Assembly: GCA_021805955.1 (NCBI GenBank)
Contig: JAJZDO010000124.1
Span: forward strand, 1 to 5,673
Origin: Acidobacteriota bacterium
GTDB lineage: Bacteria > Acidobacteriota > Terriglobia > Terriglobales > Acidobacteriaceae
Direction of reading: 5' to 3'
DNA length: 5,673 bases
Shown here: one piece after another, positions 1 to 5,673 of the stretch
How positions within the stretch are numbered: position 1 is the stretch's first letter
Layout: every line of letters begins with the position of its first letter
Translations under genes and position numbers: made by a program
Notes under the pieces: model-generated
The model's input: only the letters and a program-made list of their open reading frames with translations
The model's database searches: none
Told to the model about the DNA's origin: nothing

Positions 1-46
1 TCGAATTGATTGACTTGTCCATTGGGCTCAGTCTAGTCTGATTGCG

Positions 47-742
47 ATGCGCAGACGAGATTTTGTGAAAGCGATTGTGGCTGTTCCGGTGACAGCCACA
101 TCAATGTTCGGGCAGACCACAACGGCTCCTTCTGGAGAGAAACCCTCAGCGCCGCAAACTTCTTCCACTTCGACGGTTCCACCTGCAATAGAGACTACCC
201 CCAGATCCATCGAACAGCGGGGGAGCTTCGGCTTTCGGAGTCCAGCGATTCCCGCCACTATTCCAGATGCAATTGCAACGACAGAAGGGCATTTTTTTGA
301 CGTCCGGCAGATGGCGACGCTACGCAAACTTGGCGACATACTCCTGCCGCCACTCAATGGATATCCCGGATCGACGCAGGCCTGTGCGCCAGAATTCATT
401 GACTTTTTAGTCGGTGTCTCGCCAGCCGAGCGCCAGCACATGTATCGGTCAGGGTTGGACCGGCTGAATGCGGAGGCGGAAAAACGGTTTGCGGTTCCTT
501 TTGCGGACGTGAACGCCGAACAGGCAGATGCGCTGCTGCGACCTTGGCTGAGAGTCTGGATGCGTGACCATCCGCCCACAGAGCCGTTTGCCCAGTTCAT
601 CAACCTGGCGCATGAGGATATTCGTACCGCGACGATGAATTCACAGACTTGGAGCATCGCGGCGACTTCCGCCGGGGAGCGAGCGCCCGGAATCGGTCTC
701 TACTGGTCTCCGATCGATCCGGACATCGAGATGTATGTGTAG
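47..742 (+). CDS. Tat-exported small subunit of a GMC dehydrogenase (gluconate 2-dehydrogenase subunit 3 family)
   Basis: The 231-residue protein opens with a twin-arginine motif (RRDFVK, residues 3-8) and a short hydrophobic stretch (9-22), so export by the Tat route is likely. A Pro/Ser/Thr-rich linker (about 24-75) precedes the folded domain (about 82-231). That domain has the family pattern: a helix leading to DILLPP (97-102), [15 protein letters not shown] (106-120), and a C-terminal [12 protein letters not shown] (215-226). In this family the small subunit pairs with a GMC flavoprotein that lacks its own signal and carries it across the membrane folded. The flavoprotein gene follows 20 bases downstream, which fits. 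The ATG at 47 is chosen because the Tat motif follows at once; I see no good Shine-Dalgarno before it. Only 46 bases of upstream DNA are visible, so an earlier operon gene is possible. Family assignment is fairly secure; the substrate is unknown. Confidence 0.85.
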
Positions 743-762
743 GAAGAGGAGCTAAATTTCCC

Positions 763-2334
763 ATGAAGGAGACACATGCTGACGTACTGATTATTGGTTC
801 GGGTCATTCTGGCGGGATGGTAGCCAAGGTTCTTACAGAAAAAGGCATTTCCTGCCTGATGTTGAACGCAGGACCTATCGTCGATTTTCAAAAAGACCGC
901 GAACTTAAGCCTGCGTATGAATTGCCCTATCGGGGCTTTAACATGCCGGGGCGACTGGAGCACGTTTTTCAGGCGACCGAGTTTAACGCCAACACATGGG
1001 TCGATGAAAAGGTAGTTCCATACACATACGACCAAGGAAATCCTTACAACTGGGTGCGGGTGCGACTGTTCGGCGGGCGCTCTCTCTTCTGGTCGCGTCA
1101 ATCCTTCCGCCTCAGCAACTATGAATTCAAGGCCAAGGACCACGATGGCTTTGGGGACAACTGGCCCATCAGCCTGGCCGACCTGGCGCCTTATTACTCC
1201 CGTGTGGAAGAAATCTTCCGGGTGAGCGGGTACCCGGATGGGCTGCCGCAATATCCCGACGGCAATTTTGTCGTCAATGACACTCCCTGGTCGGGGTCCA
1301 TGCAGCGCTTCATTGCGGCCGGCAAAAAATTGAATGTTCCGGTCTGCAAGCCGCGCAGCGCCATGGGTCGCGATGGACTGGCCAGCTCAATCAACCTTCT
1401 GCTGCCGGATGCGATCGCAACTGGAAAGTTTACGGCTGTGCCGAACGTGGTGGTGCGCCAGCTCACCGTGGATAAGAACACTGGCCTGGCGAATGGAGCG
1501 CTCTTTGTCGATCGCCATTCACGGCGGGAAATGTCGGTGAATGCGCGGGTGGTGATTCTGGCGGCGGGCTGCCTGGAGAGCACACGACTGCTGCTGAACT
1601 CCGGACTGGCAAATTCCAGCGGTGTCCTTGGCCATTATTTGATCGACAACGTGTACGGTCCCGGTGTGGTCTGCTCTGTACCGGAGGCACGCGACGGAAA
1701 AGCGACGCCGGATTTAATGGGAGGCGGGGCGCTGATACCTCGCTTCCGCAATATCAACACCAAAGCAAAGAACTTCATTGGAGGCTATGCTCTGAACGTT
1801 TGGAGCAGCACGCGATCCATGGACCCGCGAAACTTTGCAGCCTATGGAGCTGACTTGCAAAAGAAGCTGGACAGCTATGACGGAAGCGGCTTTTCCATGG
1901 GCATGATGGGCCAAGTTCTATCGCATTACGAGCACCATGTCAGCATCGACAAGAACGTGGTGGATGCATGGGACATCCCTGTTCTGCACGTGGAAACGCG
2001 TTATACCGACAACGAGTTCAACATGTCGCGCGACGCAGTCGACACAGGCGTGGCAATGGCTGAAGCCGCGGGGTTTGAAGTGCTCTCAAAGAATTATGAT
2101 CCCAACCCTCCGGGCTACAGCATTCACGAACTTGGCACATGCAGAATGGGAGACAATCCGAAGACCAGCGTTTTGAACAAGTGGAATCAGAGCCATGACA
2201 TCAAGAATCTGTATGTGGTCGATGGCAGCAGTTTCGTCAACAGCGGATGGCAGAACCCTACCATGACGATTCTCGCCCTTTCCATGCGTGCCGCCGATCA
2301 TCTGGCGGAACAGATGCGTCAGGGGAACGTCTAG
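763..2334 (+). CDS. GMC-family FAD-dependent dehydrogenase, large (catalytic) subunit
   Basis: The 523-residue flavoprotein has an N-terminal FAD-binding Rossmann motif ([12 protein letters not shown], residues 7-18). It also has the GMC loop GGRSLFW (104-110), the segment [19 protein letters not shown] (134-152), and the C-terminal GMC block. In that block HELGTCRMG begins at His455 and QNPTMT contains Asn498; these are the likely His/Asn pair that abstracts the substrate proton. YVVDGSSF (481-488) is the usual FAD-contact segment. There is no signal peptide, consistent with export in complex with the Tat-bearing subunit upstream. I see no three-cysteine cluster of the kind that binds the 3Fe-4S centre in bacterial FAD-glucose dehydrogenases; only Cys195 lies in that region. 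The frame is open from ATG 649, but ATG 763 is chosen because GAGGAG lies at 746-751 and the Rossmann fold follows at once. Candidate substrates are sugars (including glucoside 3-dehydrogenase-type oxidation), sugar acids or other alcohols. Confidence 0.88.
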
Positions 2335-2336
2335 TC

Positions 2337-2945
2337 ATGGACTCATGGCGCATGTTTGCTTTGCTCACGCTAATGGCCTTCTGGACACAACCGGCCTTGC
2401 GTACTCCGATGATTGTAACTGTACAAAGCTCTGCAAATGTCCCGGCCGCTGCGCCGGCGCAGAACAGCGTCCCCGCACCGAGCGGCGCAACTGCACAAAG
2501 CAACACGCCAGCCCCGTTGCCTGGCCCCGTACAACCCATTCCATTTAGCCATAAGCAACACGCGGGCATGATGAAGTTGCCATGCGAGTTCTGCCATGTT
2601 CCTTCGCGTTCTGGAGATACCTTGTCCATTCCGCGGGCTACGTTCTGTATGCAGTGTCACCAGACGATGGGCACCAAGGATCCTGGCGTCCAAAAACTTG
2701 CGAACTACGCCGAATCCAACGATCCGATTCCGTGGGTGCGTGTGTACGAGCTGCCTTCGTTTGTTTCTTTCAGCCACAAGACCCACCTTGCACAAGGCAT
2801 TTCTTGCCAGGAGTGCCATGGACCTGTCGCGGACCGGGTACAGCTCTTCAAGGAAACGGACATATCGATGGCCGGTTGCGTAAATTGCCACCGCGAAAAA
2901 AAAGCTAACATTGAATGCAATACCTGCCACATACTGGACCAGTAA
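2337..2945 (+). CDS. Pentahaem cytochrome c, ActA-like (cytochrome c3/c7 superfamily)
   Basis: This 202-residue protein has five CXXCH haem sites: CEFCH (83-87), CMQCH (104-108), CQECH (157-161), CVNCH (181-185) and CNTCH (194-198). Two FSHKxH segments (70-75 and 146-150 region) supply likely distal histidine ligands, so the protein looks like a duplicated two-haem unit plus a fifth haem. The run NDPIPWVRVYELPSFVSF (128-145) and DISMAGCVNCHR (175-186) resemble ActA, the pentahaem subunit of alternative complex III; the other act genes are absent here. An N-terminal hydrophobic helix (about 7-20) is a signal or anchor, followed by an Ala/Pro-rich linker (35-68). ATG 2337 starts two bases after the flavoprotein stop, with AGGGGA at 2321-2326 inside the upstream gene, so translation is probably coupled. 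Likely role: wiring electrons from the dehydrogenase to the respiratory chain. Haem count is directly visible; the partner is inferred. Confidence 0.85.
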   Translation: MDSWRMFALLTLMAFWTQPALRTPMIVTVQSSANVPAAAPAQNSVPAPSGATAQSNTPAPLPGPVQPIPFSHKQHAGMMKLPCEFCHVPSRSGDTLSIPRATFCMQCHQTMGTKDPGVQKLANYAESNDPIPWVRVYELPSFVSFSHKTHLAQGISCQECHGPVADRVQLFKETDISMAGCVNCHREKKANIECNTCHILDQ

Positions 2946-3025
2946 TTCGCCTCGTGCCAGTAGAATTTAAGAATGCATCTGTCCTCCAAATCCACGATTT
3001 CTATCGATATGAACAAGGAGATTCT

Positions 3026-3346
3026 ATGAAACTTTTGACGGTATTTTTTTCGGCGGCAGCGGTCGTTTGCTCCCTGTCTGGGGTTGCGATTGGACAGAAC
3101 AACGGAGCCACGCTGTTCCAGTCGCGCTGCGTTATGTGTCACGGTGCTGATGGAAAAGGAACGCCCACCGGTGCTGCATTGAAAGTAGTAAACCTGCACA
3201 GTCCCACGGTCAAGAAACTGAGTAACGCCGAGATGGCAACTGTGATTCGCAAAGGAAAAAACATGATGCCGGCATTCGGCAACAGTTTGACTTCGCCGCA
3301 GATCGAAAGTCTCATTTCCCACATTCGCGAGCTTCAGAAGAAATAA
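3026..3346 (+). CDS. Small monohaem c-type cytochrome (class I)
   Basis: The 106-residue precursor has a Sec signal peptide (about 1-23: Lys2, hydrophobic core 3-22). It carries one haem site, CVMCHG (Cys35, Cys38, His39), followed by ADGKGTPTG, the usual class I cytochrome c loop. Met81 in NMMPAFG is the likely sixth iron ligand, and the C-terminal helix LTSPQIESLISHIREL (88-103) completes the fold. The mature size of about 83 residues is typical for a soluble periplasmic electron shuttle. AAGGAG at 3015-3020, five bases before ATG 3026, fixes the start. It lies 80 bases after the pentahaem cytochrome and is probably cotranscribed as the final carrier of this dehydrogenase set. A separate promoter in the 80-base gap cannot be excluded. 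Family assignment is secure; the redox partner is inferred from position. Confidence 0.88.
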   Translation: MKLLTVFFSAAAVVCSLSGVAIGQNNGATLFQSRCVMCHGADGKGTPTGAALKVVNLHSPTVKKLSNAEMATVIRKGKNMMPAFGNSLTSPQIESLISHIRELQKK

Positions 3347-3453
3347 CCTGTGCAGCCGGCTCTTGGGGAAGATGGTCGCTATAACGCGCCCCGTAACTCG
3401 CTGGTGGAACAGTTGCGGATCATGAGCTAATGCGTCACCGGGTCATTGCCGCG
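3347..3453. other. Gap between convergent genes
   Basis: This 107-base gap separates the end of the cytochrome gene from the end of the deformylase gene, which run towards each other. I looked for a bidirectional terminator and found no stem of convincing length and no T-run on either strand. Transcription termination for both units therefore remains unassigned. Confidence 0.5.
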
Positions 3454-4047
3454 CTATATCTCGCGCCGACTAAGAGAGATCAGCGACTCAGCAGGCTGGT
3501 CTTTCCAGTGTCGCGTGTAATTTTCAAGTGAAGAAAAACTGCGTGCATGCATTCGGTCGATATAGAGCCTGCCGTGCAAATGATCGATTTCATGCTGGAG
3601 GATACGGGCGTACCATCCGGAAGCTTCGATGATCCGAGATGTGCCTTGATGATCGAGACAGGCGACGCGCACTTCCCTTGCGCGGGGCACCAGGGCGGTG
3701 AATCCTGGCAAGCTCAAGCAGCCTTCGAAGTATGTCGCAGTCGGCTTTCCAAGCCATACAATTGTCGGGTTCACAATGACGTGAAATGGGACCTCAGTTC
3801 GACCGCGTTCCATCAGGTCCGCTTCGCTAAGCGTCTTTTGATACTCAGCCTTATCTTCGATCACGGCGAGCTGCAGCGATTCTCCAACCTGCGGTGCGGC
3901 AAGTCCCACTCCCGGAGCATCGCGAAGGGTCTCCCGCATGTATCCAATCAAGTTTTGGATCGATGAGCTCCGGATTTGCTCCGCGGAAAGCTCTTGCGAC
4001 ACAGCCCGCAAGCCCGGTTCCCCAACAGTCACGATTTTCAAACGCAC
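3454..4047 (-). CDS. def: Peptide deformylase, PDF1A-like
   Basis: This metalloenzyme removes the formyl group from the N-terminal formyl-methionine of new proteins in the cytoplasm. All three catalytic motifs are present (numbering from the GTG at 4047, 197 residues): GVGLAAPQVG (46-55), EGCLSLPG (108-115, metal ligand Cys110) and HEIDHLHG (152-159, metal ligands His152 and His156, catalytic Glu153). An insertion of about 20 residues between the first two motifs (around 64-88, beginning EDKAEYQ) and ASGWYARILQ just before the histidine motif match my recollection of mitochondrial/plastid PDF1A enzymes. The frame is open to a GTG at 4056, but AGGTGATC (minus strand, 4058-4051) is an excellent ribosome binding site for the GTG at 4047. 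That start also gives the usual short lead into VRLKIVTVGEPGLR. No fmt or other translation gene is beside it. Function is secure; the exact start is not. Confidence 0.93.
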   Translation of the reverse strand: MRLKIVTVGEPGLRAVSQELSAEQIRSSSIQNLIGYMRETLRDAPGVGLAAPQVGESLQLAVIEDKAEYQKTLSEADLMERGRTEVPFHVIVNPTIVWLGKPTATYFEGCLSLPGFTALVPRAREVRVACLDHQGTSRIIEASGWYARILQHEIDHLHGRLYIDRMHARSFSSLENYTRHWKDQPAESLISLSRREI

Positions 4048-4050
4048 TTC

Positions 4051-4058
4051 GATCACCT
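4051..4058 (-). promoter_or_regulatory. Ribosome binding site deciding the deformylase start
   Basis: On the minus strand AGGTGATC is complementary to the 3' end of 16S rRNA and ends three bases before the GTG at 4047. The alternative GTG at 4056 lies inside this site, which argues against it as the start. Confidence 0.55.
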
Positions 4059-4068
4059 TCGCAACGCG

Positions 4069-4097
4069 AGTATACCTGCGAGATCGACATGCACCAA
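4069..4097 (-). promoter_or_regulatory. Candidate sigma-70-type promoter for the deformylase gene
   Basis: On the minus strand TTGGTG (4097-4092) and TATACT (4074-4069) are separated by 17 bases. The -10 hexamer matches consensus at five of six positions and the -35 at its first three. A transcript starting about seven bases on would have a leader of only about 15 bases, just enough for the AGGTGATC site. This is inferred from sequence pattern alone. Confidence 0.45.
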
Positions 4098-4209
4098 CAG
4101 CATCATCCGGCGAAGCACGCGCGCACCGCAGGGCATAGGCTCACTACTTCGCGGTACCGTATCGTTGTCCGGCTCAGAGTTTGCGGCTTACACTGGGCGG
4201 TTGGAAGTC

Positions 4210-4315
4210 CTAGAGCATTTTCACAGATAGCGTAAGGTTTGGGTGCCCCATCCCTAGCACAGCTAGGGTGGGATAGCGCTATGTCCGCATTACAGCAACT
4301 GTGAAACTGGTCTAG
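4210..4315. mobile_element. 106-bp foldback element, MITE candidate with CTAG-bounded terminal inverted repeats
   Basis: The left end (4210-4226, CTAGAGCATTTTCACAG) and the right end (4299-4315, CTGTGAAACTGGTCTAG) are inverted copies matching at 15 of 17 positions. Both ends lie at CTAG, the kind of site at which IS630/Tc1-mariner elements insert with duplication of the central TA. The inside also folds: a near-perfect 11-bp stem with a 3-base loop (4247-4272) sits almost at the centre, so the whole piece could form one interrupted hairpin. There is no room for a transposase, so it would move only in trans. The pairing is directly visible. The family link and mobility are inferred and need copies elsewhere in the genome. 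Confidence 0.5.
4247..4272. repeat. Central hairpin of the foldback element
   Basis: CCCATCCCTAGC (4247-4258) pairs with GCTAGGGTGGG (4262-4272) across the loop ACA, with the T at 4251 bulged out. Directly beside it lies a perfect 10-bp palindrome, ATAGCGCTAT (4273-4282). The motif style GGGTGCCCCATCC...GGGTGGGAT recalls intergenic repeats I remember from acidobacterial genomes; this is recollection only. No T-run follows on either strand, so it is not a standard intrinsic terminator. Confidence 0.6.
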
Positions 4316-4368
4316 TGCTTATCTGGAAGTCAAATCGGCTTCGTGTCTGCAACTTTCGCTCCGACAAT

Positions 4369-4653: not shown

Positions 4654-4808
4654 CTACTGCGGCCAAACTGAAGGAAGTTGCTAGTCCCCGAACAAGGATG
4701 AATCAGTGAACTACCGAATTTGACGTTTTCACCATCGGCGGCGTAGTTTTGCTAAAGCGAAATTTCGGCATGCGTTGCAGCCGTTTTTCCTGAGAAGTGC
4801 GAGGTGCA

Positions 4809-4824
4809 GTGTGATCTGTCACAC
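4809..4824. promoter_or_regulatory. Perfect palindrome, possible CRP/FNR-family operator
   Basis: GTGTGA and TCACAC form perfect 6-bp arms around the 4-base spacer TCTG. The half-site TGTGA is that of CRP-type regulators, but CRP sites have a 6-base spacer; the 4-base spacing is that of FNR sites, whose half-site is TTGAT. It lies about 230 bases upstream of the hydrogenase start. Assignment to a regulator is speculative; the symmetry is directly visible. Confidence 0.3.
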
Positions 4825-4924
4825 ACCCTGCATCGCTTCGCCCCTCAGCAACTCTCTCCCTGTGTATCTGCAGTATCACCTTTCAAATCCAGCCTGTCTT
4901 CATGATTCCGGCGCCGCCCGAATT

Positions 4925-5065
4925 TTGCATTCCCAACAAACACGGATTTCCAACATCGCCAATCAAGCGGCCCAAGCTGCGGACTTGGTGACGCAAATCA
5001 CCGCGTCGCACAACATCATGAACGAAAAAATTGCGCAACAAGGAGGGCCCTATGGCCGAGCCTAA
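4925..5065 (+). CDS. Possible small coiled-coil protein overlapping the hydrogenase start
   Basis: A plus-strand reading frame ends with TAA at 5063-5065, 14 bases inside the hydrogenase gene. Its last 46 codons (from TTG 4925) encode a helix with a clean 3-4 heptad pattern: in RISNIANQAAQAADLVTQ and the following ITASHNIMNEKIAQQ, hydrophobic or small residues recur at Ile, Ala, Ala, Val, Ile, His, Met, Ile. Third-position GC in this part is about two thirds, as expected for coding DNA here. Against it, there is no ATG before a late Met (NIMNEK) and no ribosome binding site at any candidate start, and the first 50 codons of the longer frame (TTG 4775) do not look protein-like. If real, it would be translationally coupled to the hydrogenase. 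It may instead be a chance frame or the tail of a decayed gene. Confidence 0.25.
   Translation: MHSQQTRISNIANQAAQAADLVTQITASHNIMNEKIAQQGGPYGRA
5040..5046 (+). promoter_or_regulatory. Strong ribosome binding site of the hydrogenase small subunit
   Basis: AAGGAGG ends five bases before the ATG at 5052. This decides the start against the in-frame ATG at 5031, which lies upstream of the site. Confidence 0.8.
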
Positions 5066-5639
5066 CTCCGGTGCCAAAATGCAGCCGCCATCAACCGTGA
5101 AAGACGTTCATATCCTCTGGATCACAGCCGGACTTGGCTGCGACGGAGATAGTGTTTCTATCACTGCAGCCACACAGCCGAGCATTGAAGATGTTCTGCT
5201 CGGGGCCATTCCCGGTCTTCCCGAAGTACATCTGCACAATCCGGTGCTGGCATACGAGAATGGCGACGACTTCATGAAGTTCTCCTATCAGGCGGAAAAA
5301 GGGGAGCTCGATCCTTTCGTACTGGTGATGGAAGGCTCAATTCCCAACGAGAAGATCAAAAAAGAGGGTTACTGGGCCGGAATGGGCACCAACCCTGACA
5401 CCGGGCAACCGATCCTTACCTGCGACTGGATCGATCGCCTCGCGCCGAAGGCGTTGGCGGTAATCGGTTGCGGCACCTGCGCCACCTATGGCGGAATCCA
5501 CGCAATGCAAGGCAATCCGACCGGGTGTATGGGGTTGGCCGATTATCTGGGATGGAATTGGCGCTCGAAAGCCGGACTACCTATTATCAAGGTGCCGGGA
5601 TGCCCGGTGCAACCAGACAACGATGCCTGGTTTCTCTGA
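5052..5639 (+). CDS. hhyS: [NiFe]-hydrogenase small subunit, group 1h type, truncated by internal deletion and frameshift
   Basis: Residues 1-190 match the iron-sulfur subunit of high-affinity (actinobacterial-type, group 1h) uptake hydrogenases, which oxidise trace H2 to feed respiration. Visible motifs are ILWITAGLGCDGDS (21-34), EGSIPNEKIKKEGYW (94-108), GCGTCATYGGIHA (139-151) and VPGCPVQPDN (181-190). The proximal [4Fe-4S] ligands would be Cys30, Asp33, Cys143 and Cys184; aspartate in place of the usual cysteine is a known trait of this group. No signal peptide or Tat motif is present, also as expected. After Asn190 the frame reads DAWFL and stops at 5637-5639. The normal protein continues for roughly 150 more residues, including all ligands of the medial and distal clusters, so this product could not carry electrons normally. 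The large-subunit gene would lie beyond the window. Identity is secure; whether the break is biological is not. Confidence 0.88.
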   Translation: MAEPNSGAKMQPPSTVKDVHILWITAGLGCDGDSVSITAATQPSIEDVLLGAIPGLPEVHLHNPVLAYENGDDFMKFSYQAEKGELDPFVLVMEGSIPNEKIKKEGYWAGMGTNPDTGQPILTCDWIDRLAPKALAVIGCGTCATYGGIHAMQGNPTGCMGLADYLGWNWRSKAGLPIIKVPGCPVQPDNDAWFL

Positions 5640-5673
5640 TAAGTTCATGCCGTTCATGGACGAACCGCCCGGC
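5623..5673 (+). pseudogene. hhyS: Out-of-frame C-terminal remnant of the hydrogenase small subunit
   Basis: Read from 5623 in the frame one base on from the preceding coding frame, the DNA gives MPGFSDKFMPFMDEPPG. This matches the segment that follows the last cluster-binding cysteines (GCTMPGF...) in group 1h small subunits. It directly abuts the PDN codons at 5613-5621, which belong about 95 residues earlier. The frame runs open off the end of the window. Confidence 0.75.

Follow-up and report, generated by a model that had tools for sequence, protein, structure and literature searches.

In the analysed stretch of DNA (5,673 nt, from a soil bacterium, hereafter the window), hhyS, the small-subunit gene of a predicted acidobacterial [NiFe]-hydrogenase, is written without 290 internal bases and continues in a shifted frame. 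We consider it probable, with moderate confidence, that a chimeric read or a fault at the contig end lies behind this junction, and favour this explanation over a recent null allele. The record ends 52–54 bases beyond the junction, the part of the gene preceding it is apparently constrained, the junction pattern was absent from hhyS of 200 relatives, and breaks inside hhyS are seen in other metagenome records as well.

Gene Content of the Window and Identity of hhyS

The following features were identified in the window:

47–742, forward strand, gluconate-dehydrogenase-subunit-3-like gene
763–2334, forward strand, GMC oxidoreductase
2337–2945, forward strand, cytochrome c7-type gene
3026–3346, forward strand, cytochrome c gene
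3454–4056, reverse strand, peptide deformylase
5041–5047, forward strand, AGGAGGG, likely ribosome binding site of hhyS (sequence inspection)
5052 to the window end, forward strand, hhyS
5052–5621, forward strand, kept N-terminal part of hhyS, residues 1–190, frame intact
5619–5625, forward strand, junction aacgatg, lacking 290 bases found in intact genes (alignment with intact relatives)
5622–5639, forward strand, shifted frame DAWFL and stop codon TGA (5637–5639)
5623–5673, forward strand, segment from further along hhyS, in another frame, encoding MPGFSDKFMPFMDEPPG

Judged by its sequence, the gene is an acidobacterial hhyS, which encodes a group 1h-type [NiFe]-hydrogenase small subunit; the group 1h label is taken from the original prediction and from an extract of PMC8027828. 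The sequence is closest to known high-affinity type small subunits, and among solved chains 5aa5 chain A ([NiFe]-hydrogenase small subunit HofK) is the best match by far, both to the part present in the window (residues 9–192, E 8.3e-100) and to the full protein of L002 (E 2e-191). However, 5aa5 chain A is a complete protein and holds the whole segment that hhyS of the window is without.

The HhyS proteins of two metagenome-assembled genomes (MAGs), L001 (DAHUZH010000041.1) and L002 (JAJYSV010000025.1), are 94 and 92% identical to the window, respectively, over residues 1–190; in contrast to the window gene, both are intact, with a length of 353 aa and hhyL directly downstream. The acidobacterial MAG of L002 (G001), where hhyL encodes 600 aa, is the nearest genome found; its genes upstream of hhyS are arranged as in the window, and its DNA is 91.8% identical over window positions 1–4117. 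In the plasmid collection 12 records match the window, 11 of them at 60–80% identity and one over 54 bases at 91%.

There were no Rfam matches within the window. A palindromic element of approximately 105–115 bases occupies positions 4205–4320 (arms 4205–4235 and 4290–4320, DNA fold z –4.5); it is missing from L002 at the corresponding site, and similar stretches are found in all ten genomes of the genus, with 1 to 27 matches in each, at most 98% identical.

The Junction in hhyS

The hhyS frame opens with ATG at 5052 and runs up to GCPVQPDN, the last in-frame residue being Asn190 (5619–5621), and the window ends inside the gene, ahead of any large-subunit gene further downstream. The segments on the two sides of the junction are 290 bases closer in the window than in each of the six relatives compared (L001, L002, L005, L006, L017, and L031), and this difference is not a multiple of three. 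The original prediction, made from the sequence without database searches, was right about the gene, its family, and the size and frame of the gap, and alignments with intact relatives confirm its placement of the breakpoint at 5619–5625 with a shared AC (5620–5621) that may be assigned to either side. It also correctly described an internal loss with a frameshift, while its estimate of about 95 lost residues has to be replaced by the exact count, 97. The recorded sequence carries a disabling change, as would be expected of a pseudogene.

The junction contains no Ns. An overlap of two bases, as seen here, can often arise by chance, in approximately one junction out of six when equal base frequencies are assumed. 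Repeat-mediated loss was considered and rejected, as the alignments show no shared word longer than two bases at the breakpoints. A search for the junction pattern in the 200 genomes yielded a single match, with one mismatch, in G187, which we take as a chance occurrence, since G187 is not among the 20 of these genomes matching hhyS DNA.

Intact hhyS and the Missing Segment

We matched one hhyS copy per related locus, and in 76 of the 80 loci this copy is read in a single frame into MPGFPD, with 97 residues between the motifs in 75 cases and 98 in L074. Of the other four, L004 and L080 reach the contig end without a stop, an NN join interrupts the gene in L046, and L049 carries a deletion of its own. 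The spacing of intact genes was also observed in 117 of the best 120 proteins from the full-length search, the other three being without one or both motifs as written.

The segment absent from the window carries eight cysteines and histidines, invariant in all 117 proteins, and the complete set of Fe–S ligands expected in HhyS is hence not encoded; we take these eight residues to serve the medial and distal clusters. In the kept part, Cys 143 and Cys 184 correspond to cysteine in 117/117 proteins and Cys 30 in 111/117; these remaining cysteines would presumably serve the proximal cluster. As written, the predicted HhyS product could not work.

Constraint on the Kept Part

The kept part of hhyS is apparently under strong constraint, with dN of 0.041 and dS of 1.23 in comparison with L002. 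Among 291 distinct sequences it ranks 118th for unusualness. Three of its residues, K58E, F78S, and N180K, occur in none of the other 290 sequences, and two of the three fall in columns conserved to at least 80%, a level that 23 of the 291 sequences reach. Changes specific to one sequence number three in the window, compared to one in L001 and two in L002. After the junction, the window has Ser at the position occupied by Pro in 88 of 88 copies compared and in 117 of 117 proteins. Both read errors and a slight relaxation would fit the private residues and the Pro-to-Ser change. General decay was considered as evidence for a pseudogene, but neither the rank nor the number of specific changes is convincing in either direction. 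Given the constraint, the rank, and the small number of specific changes, the break in hhyS, if real, is recent.

Other Broken hhyS Records

Six proteins (P0003, P0006, P0031, P0053, P0055, and P0094), found by eye among the 120 matches listed, jump inside hhyS at differing points; the length limit of this list excludes intact full-length proteins, and hence these six give no rate of breakage. At the DNA level, NN joins with missing bases occur inside an hhyS copy in L007 (near 940), L040 (near 2124), and L046 (near 5820), pointing to failures of scaffolding within hhyS. In G098, the frame of hhyS changes near residue 184, which splits the gene.

The case most similar to the window is L049 (JASHRF010000101.1), where an out-of-frame loss also starts inside hhyS, with no Ns and a few shared bases at the join. 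Unlike in the window, approximately 2.1 kb are gone compared to L031, the loss reaches into hhyL, and the join is situated inside a 77.6-kb contig. At approximately 5520–5730 of L049, the hhyS sequence is joined, in a different frame, to the last part of hhyL.

The nearest other protein, P0002 (250 aa), is 95% identical over residues 1–190 and loses the frame of hhyS near residue 231, after CDR; it represents either a second damaged hhyS close to the lineage of the window, or another assembly fault. The truncated protein of the window heads cluster P0001, comprising five sequences from four contigs, the longest of 96,124 bases. In the full-length search with L001 HhyS, none of the best 120 of 8000 proteins exceeded 87% identity, and neither L001 nor L002 was among them, so we suspect that these two sit in cluster P0001 with longer intact members.

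Distribution and Divergence of hhyS

The hhyS gene is present in two of the ten genomes of the genus, a third match, at 33% identity in G007, being another hydrogenase, and in 51 of the 398 genomes of the family. In G001 (L084/L162, contig C123, approximately 5571–19629), a hydrogenase block of about 14 kb separates a cytochrome c gene from a gene encoding 356 aa. The same two genes are adjacent in G004, G006, and G008 (L158, L159, and L160), genomes showing no hhyS; the stretch of G003 that was covered did not contain the 356-aa gene. Within the genus, the hydrogenase block is, by these gene arrangements, strain-variable.

The dS of hhyS relative to L002 contrasts with that of the five upstream genes, which is 0.16–0.31, that is, four to eight times lower, and the identity between the window and L002 drops over approximately 4800–5100. 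The hhyS genes of the window, L001, and L002 are about equidistant, with dS of 1.1–1.3. This silent-site divergence suggests either that the operon was exchanged in one lineage, or that the record is a mosaic.

Origin of the Junction

If the junction results from a fault, the source would be an uncultured acidobacterium, probably with an intact hhyS, and the last bases of the record would most likely come from a chimeric read or a faulty extension of the contig end that skipped 290 bases of the gene. The window end presumably coincides with the contig end, and the junction would be held by one or few reads and would not represent the allele of the organism. A plain misjoin in an assembly graph needs a long shared word. 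As only two bases are shared here, the junction was probably present in at least one read, either a library chimera or a copy of a real allele; this counts against a fault insofar as such a join is hard to obtain without a read holding it, and a pure graph error is unlikely. The clean deletion inside the long contig of L049 also speaks against a fault. On the other side, if the window is the whole contig, simple arithmetic places a random deletion this close to either end in approximately 2% of cases, whereas a near-end junction is exactly what a chimeric read at the end of a contig would produce. The preference for a fault would be wrong if members of cluster P0001 share the junction.

The main rival, a real and recent 290-base deletion at a two-base match producing a null hhyS allele in a part or all of the population, is in our opinion rather doubtful, although several observations are compatible with it. 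The product of such an allele would keep the cysteines near the active site and lose those of the outer Fe–S clusters, so that electrons could not leave the enzyme. The absence of Ns at the junction and its probable presence in some read agree with a true deletion, as do the patchy distribution of hhyS in the genus and the family, the existence of breaks inside long contigs (L049, G098), the frameshift, albeit further on, in P0002, and the private residues together with Ser in place of the invariant Pro. However, general decay is not observed, and the junction is only about 52 bases away from the record end. We regard as still more tentative the extended scenario of a very recent null hhyS allele in a wild acidobacterium, within a strain-variable block and an operon exchanged between lineages, with trace-H2 oxidation both gained and lost at one site within the genus.

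It is very unlikely that the hydrogenase region of the record combines DNA from two organisms, as a mosaic with the junction as one of the seams. The excess of hhyS dS over the upstream genes and the drop of identity upstream of and into hhyS could be read this way, and the 51-base tail shows 90% identity to L028, compared with 84% to L001 and 82% to L002, but the leader up to hhyS aligns with L002 at approximately 79–86% with no sharp seam, and the tail is too short to be placed. For the same reason, a foreign origin of the tail was rejected as a separate candidate, the best match to L028 being of no power over 51 bases. Even less probable is that the gene encodes a functional shortened subunit or makes use of programmed frameshifting: the likely ribosome binding site and the constrained N-terminal part would be consistent with it, but shifting the frame cannot restore the 97 missing residues, among them the eight invariant cysteines and histidines. 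A fault at the record end remains our preferred explanation.

Implications for Trace-H2 Oxidation

The original prediction offered two alternatives, a strain that has lost trace-H2 oxidation or wrongly joined reads or contigs; the evidence leans to the latter, in the form of a fault at the record end, and the claim of loss goes beyond what one broken hhyS can carry. In two acidobacterial isolates, a second hhyS copy approximately 3,600 bp upstream is described in the extract of PMC8027828, and hence some strains could retain H2 uptake despite a real break; however, G001 and G002, the closest relatives, each show a single hhyS match at E ≤ 1e-60.

Read literally, the record would be scored as belonging to a bacterium that has no functional trace-H2 oxidase. 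Since further metagenome records are also broken within hhyS, read support is required before a gene is declared lost on the basis of one contig. If the deletion is true, atmospheric H2 oxidation would have been lost recently in this lineage, where the trait is patchy.
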